From Methanomassiliicoccales archaeon (lineage in GTDB: Archaea; Thermoplasmatota; Thermoplasmata; Methanomassiliicoccales; UBA472): a stretch of DNA of 50,317 nucleotides. The stretch covers positions 1-50,317 of the forward strand of contig DASXVU010000029.1 in NCBI GenBank assembly GCA_036504055.1, written 5' to 3'. A program made the position numbers and the translations under genes. Shown one piece after another: positions 24,735 through 28,609 of the stretch; position 1 is the first letter of the stretch; every line of letters starts with the position of its first letter. Below the pieces are notes generated by a model. It made no database searches. It was not told the origin of the DNA and was given only the letters and a program-made list of their open reading frames with translations.

Positions 24735-25709
24735 ATGAAGGTGGCGATCGCAGGCGCCGGGATGGCCGGTTCCTATCTGTATAAAAGGTTGAAGGACCAG
24801 GGTCTTCACGATGTGGACCTATATGATGTAAGGAAGACCACTGCCTGCGGGTGCCGGCCCTGCGCCTGGGGGATAGCGCCGACATCGGGCTATCGGGAAA
24901 TGATATCCAAGGTATCCGATCCATCCATTTTCGAAAGGCACCATTCATCCCAGGTCTCCGTCGACGGCGTCATGATACGTTCGGACATGATGACCATCGA
25001 CAAGCCGGGCCTTATCCGAGAGCTGACCAAAGATGCGGCCATCCGAGAAGGCCAGATCGACCTGGACAATTATGACCGTGTCATCGATGCCACCGGTGTG
25101 AGCCGGGCTTACCTGCCGGACATAGAGAACGACATCATCGCCGATTGCGTACAATACCGGATAAGGAGCGAGGAGACGATGGACCTGTGGTTCAGGACAT
25201 CATCCCTGGGGTATGAATGGTGCTTCCCTCTGGGAAACGGCGAGTATCATGTTGGGTTCGGCAACCTCAAGACCGATGTGAATGGTTACCGGCCTGCGTT
25301 GCTGAACGAGGCCGATAAGGGATCGAAGCAGGTACGCTGCAGATGCCAGAGCCGGGTGAGGCTGTCCTCACCGTTCTTTTCACAACCGTTCGTCAAGGAC
25401 GGTAAGATCGTAGGGATCGGGGAGAGCATAGGGGCCGTCGGCCCGCTGGCCGCAGACGGGAACATCTATGCCCTGCAGACGGCGGAGATGCTGCTGGAGA
25501 ACTGGGACGACCTGGACCAATACACCGAAAGGGTGCTTCAGAGATTCGATTGGATGAAAAGGGAACGGAAGGCGGCGGAGAAGCTGAGGGACGGGATCAT
25601 GCCCAGCATGGCGGATGCGCTGGTGTTCAAGAGGCACAGCAACATGGTCGGCATCGAAATGAACACGCTGCACATCCTAAGACTGTTCAGAAGGTCATTG
25701 GAGCATTGA
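24735..25709 (+). CDS. FAD-dependent reductase, geranylgeranyl reductase family
   Basis: 324 aa. An N-terminal FAD Rossmann loop GAGMAG (7-12) is followed by a cysteine cluster CGCRPCAWG (38-46) at the place where family members carry their conserved Cys motif. DATG (118-121) contacts FAD, and YEWCFP (160-165) matches the substrate-binding YxWxFP motif of archaeal geranylgeranyl reductases. Known relatives saturate isoprenoid chains of membrane lipids or other prenyl compounds. The ATG is preceded by GAGGTG. It is the first gene of a four-gene isoprenoid run, so the substrate is likely a prenylated product made by the next genes. Confidence 0.88.
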   Translation: MKVAIAGAGMAGSYLYKRLKDQGLHDVDLYDVRKTTACGCRPCAWGIAPTSGYREMISKVSDPSIFERHHSSQVSVDGVMIRSDMMTIDKPGLIRELTKDAAIREGQIDLDNYDRVIDATGVSRAYLPDIENDIIADCVQYRIRSEETMDLWFRTSSLGYEWCFPLGNGEYHVGFGNLKTDVNGYRPALLNEADKGSKQVRCRCQSRVRLSSPFFSQPFVKDGKIVGIGESIGAVGPLAADGNIYALQTAEMLLENWDDLDQYTERVLQRFDWMKRERKAAEKLRDGIMPSMADALVFKRHSNMVGIEMNTLHILRLFRRSLEH

Positions 25710-25723
25710 ACGGGGGTGGACAG

Positions 25724-26425
25724 ATGTCGGGGCCAATGAAGGCGTCGGAAACACTGGTAATTAATAGAGATCTTGGTTGGTATCGGTATCTGGTGCATAA
25801 CCGGTCGGTGACGGGAAGCCTGTTCACCCTGCTGCACCTGCCCTTCATGCTCGCGTTCCTCTCCCTCGTGCTGCTGGGAACTTTCACGGTGGCCAAGATC
25901 GACCAGACGGTCCTCCTTTTGTCACTTGCTGCGGTGGCGGCCATGCTCTACGGCGAGCATATGATGGATGATACCACGCAGGTGGGAAAGCCGTGGAGGA
26001 CCGTCTTCTCCGATCGGACGCTCACCTTCCTGGGGATCGGTCTGGATGTCGTGGCGGCGGGGATCGGCCTATATGCCAGCTATCGTTTTGGGACGGCCCT
26101 TCCGATCGTGGGGGTGTCGCTGGGGATCGTGTTCTGCACCCTCTATGGGCTAGAAAAGTGGAAGTTCCATCAGGTCTGGTTCGGCGCGCTCGGGATGGGG
26201 GCGATCGCCATGTTCTCATATCTTGCCCAGACAGTGATAGCCGGACAGACCCCGGATGCACCGGTGACCCTACTGCTCCTCGGCACCGGTTTCACTTTCA
26301 GCTATGTGCTGCTAGGGCTTTACGAATACACCAAAAGGGACGGAAGCCGGGTCATATGGAACATACTGGGCGGACAGTTCGCTTTGTCATATCTCCTGGG
26401 ATTGGCCGTTCTGTGGTTCAGGTGA
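25724..26425 (+). CDS. Polytopic membrane protein resembling a divergent UbiA-type prenyltransferase
   Basis: 233 aa from the ATG at 25724 (GGGGGTGG upstream), 14 bp after the reductase. About six to seven helices. After the second helix the segment EHMMDDTTQVGKPWR sits where UbiA enzymes carry their NDxxDxxxD metal site, and the following helix order is UbiA-like (LYGLEKWKF at the position of the family's LYS..LK segment). Only one adjacent Asp pair (D82-D83) remains, and no second DxxxD is seen. Either the active site is remodelled or the protein is a non-catalytic partner of the canonical UbiA encoded next. The resemblance is by eye; another membrane family is possible. Confidence 0.6.
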   Translation: MSGPMKASETLVINRDLGWYRYLVHNRSVTGSLFTLLHLPFMLAFLSLVLLGTFTVAKIDQTVLLLSLAAVAAMLYGEHMMDDTTQVGKPWRTVFSDRTLTFLGIGLDVVAAGIGLYASYRFGTALPIVGVSLGIVFCTLYGLEKWKFHQVWFGALGMGAIAMFSYLAQTVIAGQTPDAPVTLLLLGTGFTFSYVLLGLYEYTKRDGSRVIWNILGGQFALSYLLGLAVLWFR

Positions 26426-26628
26426 TGTAAAGCTCCGTAACCCCGGGAGACGGGCCGGAACCTTAATTGCCCTTGTGCTCAGAACTCTACCACGGTGAAT
26501 CCAAATAGAGATCGGAGGGACTTCGCAATTTCCGGAAAGAAGGTGCTCCCGGCAAGGCCAAGAGAAGCTCAGACTCCGTTGCGAACAGGGGAATCCCACG
26601 AATCTCTAGACAGCCGAAGGGGCGTTCC

Positions 26629-27567
26629 ATGAAACCGGTTTCCCTGTTCTATTTCGCCAGGATAAAACCGATGGCGGCATGGACCATCAGCGGATCGCTG
26701 TTGGGTGTGGCGTTGGCAGGCTATCTGACCGGCTGGCATATCATCGATGGTTTCTCCACGTTCCTGGCAGCCATCGTCGTCGTCCTCATGCAGTATGTGG
26801 CCCATCCGATGAACGACATCATGGACTACGAGCTTGACCGACAGGCCCCCATAGAGGCGACCGGCCGGGTCAAGCCTCTGGTAGACGGCATGATCACCAG
26901 GAAGGAGACCAAGTGGTTGAGCCTGTCCATAGTGCTGTTGATCGTTGTCATAATGGCATATCTGATCTGGCTCCGTCCGGTCCTGATCCTGCCGGCGGCC
27001 TATGGTATGGCCGCTTTGATCGGCTATAATCATAAGGCGACAAAGCTGGCCTACAGACCCTACAGCGAACTATACATCAGCATGCCGATCAACGCCATCG
27101 CCGTCTTCGTCATTTCCTACATCGGTTCAGGTCAGCTAAGCCAGGTGGCTACGGTCGTGGGCGTCTGCTTCGGATTCGCCTCCAGCTCGTTCTTCGTGAG
27201 CATGATGAGCATGGATTTCCCAACCGACAGAGAGAACGGAAAACGGACCACGATCGTGACCCATCCCCGGCTGAGATGGTGCATGTACTACCCACTGACG
27301 GGTCTGTTCTTTACCATTGTTTCCGCCCCATTGATAATGGATGCCCTCCCACCGTTCCCGGCAGCGGCATTCCTCGGGGTGACGGTCGTGGTCTTCGCGC
27401 TCTTGGCACTGCTCGGCTCAAAGGTGGACAGGATCAGGCTGGATTACCTGGCAGGGAGGACCTCGAACATGGAAGGGGCGACCGGGGCGGGCAGATTGTA
27501 CCAACTTTACCTATCGGTCGTCTATGCTCTTTCGCTGGCGGCCCTTTTCGCATACCTGAGGATGTGA
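26629..27567 (+). CDS. UbiA-family prenyltransferase
   Basis: 312 aa with about nine helices. Both metal/diphosphate motifs are intact: NDIMDYELD (N62, D63, D66, D70) and DFPTD (D196, D200). UbiA enzymes move a polyprenyl chain from its diphosphate to an acceptor such as an aromatic ring, a heme or a glycerol phosphate. The acceptor is not identifiable here. The next gene encodes a prenyl diphosphate synthase, four bases after the stop, so donor supply and transfer are coupled. The 203-bp gap upstream contains no gene; a TATA-like CTTAATTGC near 26463 may give an internal promoter. Confidence 0.93.
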   Translation: MKPVSLFYFARIKPMAAWTISGSLLGVALAGYLTGWHIIDGFSTFLAAIVVVLMQYVAHPMNDIMDYELDRQAPIEATGRVKPLVDGMITRKETKWLSLSIVLLIVVIMAYLIWLRPVLILPAAYGMAALIGYNHKATKLAYRPYSELYISMPINAIAVFVISYIGSGQLSQVATVVGVCFGFASSSFFVSMMSMDFPTDRENGKRTTIVTHPRLRWCMYYPLTGLFFTIVSAPLIMDALPPFPAAAFLGVTVVVFALLALLGSKVDRIRLDYLAGRTSNMEGATGAGRLYQLYLSVVYALSLAALFAYLRM

Positions 27568-27571
27568 TCTT

Positions 27572-28609
27572 ATGGGACTCGTAAAAGCAACCGGACCAAG
27601 CCGAGAAGCCGCCATTGTTGAGCCGATGATGAGGAGATGCTCCTCATATCCCGTCTACCTGGAAAGGATCAAGCCCGCCATCGATGAACGGATCATGCGA
27701 TCGGTCTGCAATGATGCGAATGGTGCATTGGACCGAAGGCTGGAGAACCCTTTGAGGCAGGGGAAGAGGATGAGGGCGGGATTGCTCATGCTCATATTCG
27801 AAACGTACGGTCAGGAAAGATACCGCGATATGGCCCTCGACCTGGCATCGGCCATCGAGATCGCCCATGCCGCCAGCCTTATAGTGGATGACATGCTGGA
27901 CGAGGATGTGACCAGGCATGGATCGCCGACCATGCATATCACCGCCGGGCATAAGAGCGCCATACTGGGCACCATCGGTCTTATCTCCTATCCCTACCAG
28001 ATCACTTCCAGATATGGTGAGGAATACGTCCTGGGCATGGCCAGGACACATCGGGCCATGGTTCAGGGGGCCAGCCGCGAAATGCGTGGCGCACCTTCTG
28101 TCGGTGTGAAGGAGACCTATGACGGCATAATCGAGATGAAGACCGGCCAACTGTTCGGACTGGCCGCCCGCTATGGTGCGTTGGTGGCCGGATGCACCCC
28201 CGAAGTGACGGAGATGTGTTCTGAGTTCGGGAACCTTACCGGCAGGGCGATGCAGATCGCCGATGACGTGACCGACCTGGAAGCATTGTTGAACGGAAAG
28301 AAGGCGGGCATCAGAGGATCCGAGGCGATACTGCTCAGATGCTGCCTCGGTCGGATCGGGGAACCGCCGGAGGAGGTGGAACGTGACGTTGGCGGGGATG
28401 TCGGTCCATTGGACAAGGCGCACCGTCAGGACATAGAGAAGGCGCTTGGCGGATACCTTGAGGCTGCCATCAAGAATGCCGTGGGGGCGGTCCATAGGCT
28501 CATGGAAGGGATCGGACCTCAGGTTCAGGATAATGGCAATCAAAAATTACCCGAGCTGGGCAGTGTACCGGCCGAGATCGCGGCGATGGTGCTCAAAGAG
28601 GCCAAATGA
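27572..28609 (+). CDS. Polyprenyl diphosphate synthase (trans-isoprenyl type)
   Basis: 345 aa. Condenses isopentenyl diphosphate onto allylic diphosphates. The first Asp-rich motif is DDMLDED (106-112) and the second is DDVTD (231-235); GKRMRAG precedes them. The residues four and five before the first motif are small (Ser, Ala), which in this family allows products of C20 or longer. The C-terminal part departs from standard GGPP synthases, so product length is uncertain. Translation is coupled to the UbiA gene: GGATGTGAT, containing the UbiA stop, acts as the ribosome binding site. Confidence 0.92.
   Translation: MGLVKATGPSREAAIVEPMMRRCSSYPVYLERIKPAIDERIMRSVCNDANGALDRRLENPLRQGKRMRAGLLMLIFETYGQERYRDMALDLASAIEIAHAASLIVDDMLDEDVTRHGSPTMHITAGHKSAILGTIGLISYPYQITSRYGEEYVLGMARTHRAMVQGASREMRGAPSVGVKETYDGIIEMKTGQLFGLAARYGALVAGCTPEVTEMCSEFGNLTGRAMQIADDVTDLEALLNGKKAGIRGSEAILLRCCLGRIGEPPEEVERDVGGDVGPLDKAHRQDIEKALGGYLEAAIKNAVGAVHRLMEGIGPQVQDNGNQKLPELGSVPAEIAAMVLKEAK

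Follow-up and report, generated by a model that had tools for sequence, protein, structure and literature searches.

Gene content of the cluster

The stretch of DNA analyzed here (the window) comprises 50,317 bases of contig C29 from the genome of a Methanomassiliicoccales archaeon (2.66 Mb in 49 contigs) and contains a cluster of four isoprenoid-related genes. A first-pass annotation of the window had described these genes as a reductase, an extra UbiA-like membrane protein, a UbiA and a polyprenyl synthase with tight spacing between most of them, which together could make, attach and saturate one prenyl chain, possibly that of a polyprenylated redox carrier. All four are indeed present as open reading frames on one strand (24735-28609), UbiA and the synthase scored above the Pfam cut-offs, and the gaps between the genes (14, 203 and 4 nt, in gene order) agree with the described spacing. 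The four genes are as follows.

24735..25709, plus strand: short geranylgeranyl-reductase-fold flavoprotein, prenyl-reductase-like (324 amino acids; FAD GxGxxG, PCxxG and GYxWxFP...GxG motifs; extra invariant Cys38 and Cys202-x-Cys204)
25724..26425 (ATG start), plus strand: optional UbiA-like integral membrane protein (233 amino acids; about seven hydrophobic helices; Asp motifs not kept)
26629..27567, plus strand: UbiA prenyltransferase with MenA-like leanings (312 amino acids; PF01040 match; NDxxDxxxD and DxxxD invariant)
27572..28609, plus strand: trans-isoprenyl diphosphate synthase (345 amino acids; PF00348; both DDxxD motifs; Ala at position -5 of the first motif)

The gap of 203 nt between the UbiA-like gene and UbiA (26426-26628) is about 30-100 nt in relatives. 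As had been stated, the scan of neighbors in the window revealed no ring-forming gene, and the downstream MFS transporter gene was rejected as a member of the unit, not being conserved beside the cluster in relatives. No matches were obtained when the window was scanned for Rfam families and tRNAs, nor did a plasmid search give any. The GC content of the window (55.3%) equals that of other parts of the genome (54-56%), and thus the cluster is not obviously a foreign island.

Conservation of the cluster in Methanomassiliicoccales

Searches within the order used a set of 61 genomes (including 60 relatives) or samples drawn from the order, and were extended to 147 genomes for the UbiA-like protein and for the UbiE-like methyltransferase described below. 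It should be noted that several of these are incomplete metagenome-assembled genomes (MAGs). UbiA was identified in 10 of the 61 genomes and the reductase in 17; the named relatives with the same UbiA are Methanomassiliicoccales or Methanomassiliicoccus MAGs. UbiA and the synthase were adjacent in every intact cluster whose contig reaches far enough, covering at least five genera and two families, and the arrangement recurs in other genera of the order at 46-57% UbiA identity, and is thus more than chance. The reductase was located beside or near UbiA in all clusters but that of G035; in G047 both genes are at contig ends. The G047 copy of UbiA matched in separate pieces (L057:452-1595), as if broken or misassembled, and the adjoining synthase was intact. 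The UbiA-like gene was found in four of the 147 genomes, every time between the reductase and UbiA. The core of the cluster is therefore the pair of UbiA and synthase, which stays together, with the reductase as a frequent neighbor that mostly accompanies it and the UbiA-like gene as an optional member.

With respect to genomic context, the block is mostly found at one site in family f6, with Nre, radical SAM and thermosome genes on one side and GNAT and PolX-like genes on the other, and the cluster in the window sits in a setting different from this housekeeping-gene site. Outside the order, the trio UbiA-reductase-synthase is carried on a short contig (L064) that belongs to another family of the class, and a distant short reductase stands alone in a related family of this class.

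Prenyltransferase, UbiA-like protein and synthase

UbiA matched PF01040 with 64.9 bits (Pfam cut-off 34.2), and residues N62, D63, D66 and D70 as well as D196 and D200 were invariant in the eight members aligned. The protein is predicted to attach the prenyl chain to a small aromatic acceptor. Both Asp motifs are common to the MenA/UbiA lipoquinone prenyltransferases (PF01040; TIGR00751, PRK06080), and the best NCBIfam matches were mostly MenA and unnamed prenyltransferases, all below cut-off. However, the weak MenA-type matches stayed far under the curated cut-offs (25.1 bits against 102.15 for TIGR00751), UbiA was always accompanied by its own prenyl synthase, and in a phylogenetic tree whose deep branches were not resolved, the cluster UbiAs formed a clade separate from the three other UbiAs of the host. 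Three weak matches in this tree (L108, L110 and probably L100) were in wrong reading frames and were disregarded.

The MenA matches, together with the UbiE-like partner, might indicate that UbiA is a second MenA working on a menaquinone precursor. However, MqnA/MqnD (PF02621) was found over cut-off in none of the 61 genomes, with control genomes positive, a result that led us to reject the futalosine menaquinone route and that covers this route only, since classical Men genes were not searched for. We regard a second MenA as highly improbable.

As for the other UbiAs of the host, whose names were read from the sequences, one is a DGGGPS beside GGGP synthase and a second is a UbiA domain beside the canonical GGR. 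In the third, a UbiA domain and an ABC-transporter permease seem to be fused within a single open reading frame (L117:11110-12744, on contig C48 of the host genome G000), flanked by genes for an ABC ATPase and a UbiD-family protein, in a genome with no MqnA/MqnD. Because GGGP synthase, DGGGPS and the canonical GGR are encoded elsewhere, the standard lipid route is already present and the cluster is separate from it; a role in standard archaeal lipid synthesis, which the first-pass annotation had named as evidence that would count against its proposal, was thus rejected. A related explanation is that the genes are paralogs of standard ether-lipid enzymes, perhaps serving unusual tetraethers: every cluster family has lipid-pathway cousins, and butanetriol- and pentanetriol-based tetraethers are reported for the order. 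However, with the standard enzymes elsewhere, a UbiA that leans toward MenA and not DGGGPS, and a patchy distribution, this explanation seems very unlikely.

The synthase matched PF00348 with 118.4 bits (cut-off 27) and both DDxxD motifs were intact. Its closest solved relative by E-value, narrowly ahead of others, was 3ipi, which we take to be a Methanosarcina mazei protein, and its score against GFPS_Meth (NF040627) was 83.1 bits, far from the curated cut-off of 600. The residue at position -5 of the first DDxxD motif was A, S, V or I in all cluster members and never aromatic. In archaeal C20 (GGPP) synthases, a bulky aromatic residue at this position limits chain length (PMC9385802). Thus, a chain longer than C20 is predicted, and is probably the product of the synthase.

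The extra UbiA-like membrane protein of the first-pass annotation exists, but its resemblance to UbiA is weak. It had no Pfam match, PF01040 included, and was not recognized by sequence; neither NDxxDxxxD nor the second DxxxD was found in it, and profile comparison with the cluster UbiA gave no significant match (probability 0.8%), so that a relationship at this level was rejected. The best matches of its AlphaFold model (pLDDT 74) were the UbiA-fold structures 6m31, 7bpu and 4tq6 (TM about 0.5; E-values weak, 0.02-0.09). Should the protein be related to UbiA, the missing Asp motifs make an ordinary transferase improbable. Within the function proposed below for the whole cluster, and with the same moderate confidence, it would be an optional accessory subunit or a paralog that has lost its activity.

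Reductase

The reductase matched TIGR02032 with 37.8 bits (E 1.7e-9), below the curated cut-off of 158.8, and was thus not assigned to that family; judged by sequence, it belongs to the geranylgeranyl-reductase superfamily as a distant member. Its AlphaFold model (16 sequences; pLDDT 88) has the GGR fold, with the best match in the PDB to 3oz2, the geranylgeranyl reductase of Thermoplasma acidophilum, and contains the FAD motif, PCxxG and YxWxFP...GxG; the PC-containing motif aligns with the equivalent site of Sulfolobus acidocaldarius GGR. The FAD fold, the PCxxG cysteine and GYxWxFP...GxG are common to archaeal geranylgeranyl reductases (3oz2, 3atq) and the menaquinone reductase MenJ, whereas the cluster reductase is about 70-130 residues shorter, falls below the family cut-off and has the extra invariant Cys38 and CxC. 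The latter residues (Cys38 and Cys202-x-Cys204) were present in all cluster reductases found and in stand-alone relatives of the order, and absent from the short reductases of f22, a related family within the class that we take to be Thermoplasmatales. Cluster-type reductases, including those of the window, L064 and the bacterial contig L050 described below, have four invariant cysteines (C38, C43, C202 and C204), three of which are missing from the f22 proteins. These four residues might bind a metal or an Fe-S cluster.

The distribution of the reductase bears on whether it belongs to the same pathway as UbiA. It could instead be a general prenyl reductase acting on another lipid, the core being the UbiA-synthase pair and the reductase only its frequent neighbor. 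UbiA was lacking in eight of the 17 reductase-carrying genomes, and two of them (G038 and G053) retain the reductase at the syntenic f6 site with UbiA and the synthase missing; conversely, G035 has UbiA and the synthase without the reductase, and the distant short reductases of the related family occur alone. On the other hand, UbiA again accompanies the reductase in L050 and L064, two unrelated clusters, and their reductases share the extra Cys motifs missing from the distant stand-alone family. We consider a purely general reductase rather unlikely. The reductase nevertheless probably acts on other substrates too, and the proposed saturation step, plausible as it is, is not its exclusive task. 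In four genomes that have the reductase without UbiA (L034, L035, L036 and L038), a gene for a DUF116 membrane protein follows the reductase.

Bacterial relative and UbiE-like methyltransferase

A contig from a bacterial MAG (L050), assigned to bacteria on the basis of its database label and flanking gene content, encodes a UbiA 61% identical to the cluster UbiA and a reductase of the same type (42%). Here, a PhzF-like gene, a class I methyltransferase, the reductase and a UbiE-like methyltransferase are arranged head to tail with short gaps (L050:4944-8257), and UbiA and a prenyl synthase different from that of the cluster adjoin this run. No close homolog and one weak match were found in 59 relatives of the bacterial host.

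Among the 147 genomes of the order, six encode close relatives of the L050 UbiE-like protein (scores of 164-196 bits, against 79 for the next match), and the cluster UbiA is present in each of the six; UbiA status was established for part of the 147, and none of the remaining genomes has a close UbiE-like protein. The co-occurrence with UbiA in the 61 genomes searched for both (10 with UbiA, the six among them) gave p about 4e-6 unstratified and 0.0006-0.002 within families. Given the physical linkage in L050 and this co-occurrence in the order, the data point to a methylated carrier. The contexts of the archaeal UbiE-like gene, which in the host is located at G000:C48:148296-148967, mostly differ, and no ring genes were recognized beside it. 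With respect to the UbiA-like gene, three of its four carriers (G005, G041 and G055, as opposed to G000) lack a close UbiE-like gene, whereas such a gene is present with every one of the five intact clusters that lack the UbiA-like gene (p about 0.05, with small numbers).

Proposed function

On the basis of gene content, motifs, synteny and co-occurrence, we propose with moderate confidence that the cluster is a dedicated prenyl-tailing module, likely to yield a redox carrier of the quinone or phenazine type that is soluble in the membrane and would be used without b-type cytochromes. We infer that the synthase would make a prenyl diphosphate whose chain probably exceeds C20, and that UbiA would transfer this chain to a small aromatic acceptor coming from elsewhere. 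The reductase would saturate one or more isoprene units, and the ring would be methylated, at least in some hosts, by a UbiE-like C-methyltransferase whose gene lies elsewhere. The earlier claims that a chain is made and attached are strengthened by the adjacency of UbiA and the synthase wherever the contig allows and by the location of the standard lipid genes elsewhere. The UbiE-like methyltransferase lends support to the suggested redox carrier, both through its physical link in L050 and through its co-occurrence in the order. The redox role is suggested by this partner and by an earlier proposal of Borrel et al. (2014), who postulated a liposoluble carrier for Methanomassiliicoccales, of unspecified nature, and found ispA, ubiA and ubiE in all three genomes (PMC4153887). 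The role proposed there is the same, a membrane electron carrier next to the Fpo-like complex, whereas the present cluster is an additional set, occurs in few genera and is accompanied by a different UbiE-like protein.

Several observations weigh against this proposal. The reductase and UbiA are separable, as the cluster of G035 and the eight genomes with only the reductase indicate. The association of the UbiE-like protein with UbiA becomes weak once genus is controlled for (p 0.02), its gene lies away from the cluster in the archaeal genomes, and the intact UbiA carriers G005, G041 and G055 lack a close copy. Moreover, the UbiE-like proteins scored 65-68 bits (archaea) and 95.6 bits (L050) against TIGR01934, below its cut-off of 158.35, and are thus named UbiE-like only. 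No ring pathway was found, MqnA/MqnD being absent from the 61 genomes, and cytochrome b561 (PF01292; the VhtC-type subunit) was likewise found in none of them, with the Methanosarcina acetivorans control positive, so that a cytochrome partner for the carrier was rejected.

The Methanosarcina methanophenazine system would likewise need a long-chain synthase, an aromatic prenyltransferase and a prenyl reductase, and the product could be methanophenazine itself or a close analog. The chain of methanophenazine is long and partly reduced, and the small residues at positions -5/-4 of the synthase, its relationship to 3ipi and the PhzF-like gene in the L050 operon are consistent with such a product. 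However, methanophenazine is not known to be C-methylated, which leaves the UbiE-like partner unexplained. In addition, the synthase falls outside GFPS_Meth (83 of 600 bits), a pattern-limited UbiA scan of named genomes gave no methanogen outside this lineage, and the order lacks cytochrome b561 in the genomes searched as well as HdrE (PMC10804542). We therefore consider methanophenazine improbable.

It is still debated whether a membrane-soluble electron carrier operates in Methanomassiliicoccales, a liposoluble carrier having been proposed earlier (PMC4153887) and direct Fpo-HdrD transfer being favored by later work (PMC10804542). A more specific possibility, which we put forward tentatively and consider doubtful at present, is that some methanogens without cytochromes produce a redox carrier not described before, a C-methylated aromatic with a long, partly saturated prenyl chain, by means of a dedicated synthase, UbiA, a Cys-rich reductase and a remotely encoded UbiE-like protein, and that a bacterium has an equivalent pathway. 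Since the cluster genes are specific and patchily distributed, cluster-bearing and cluster-free relatives are directly comparable in this respect.

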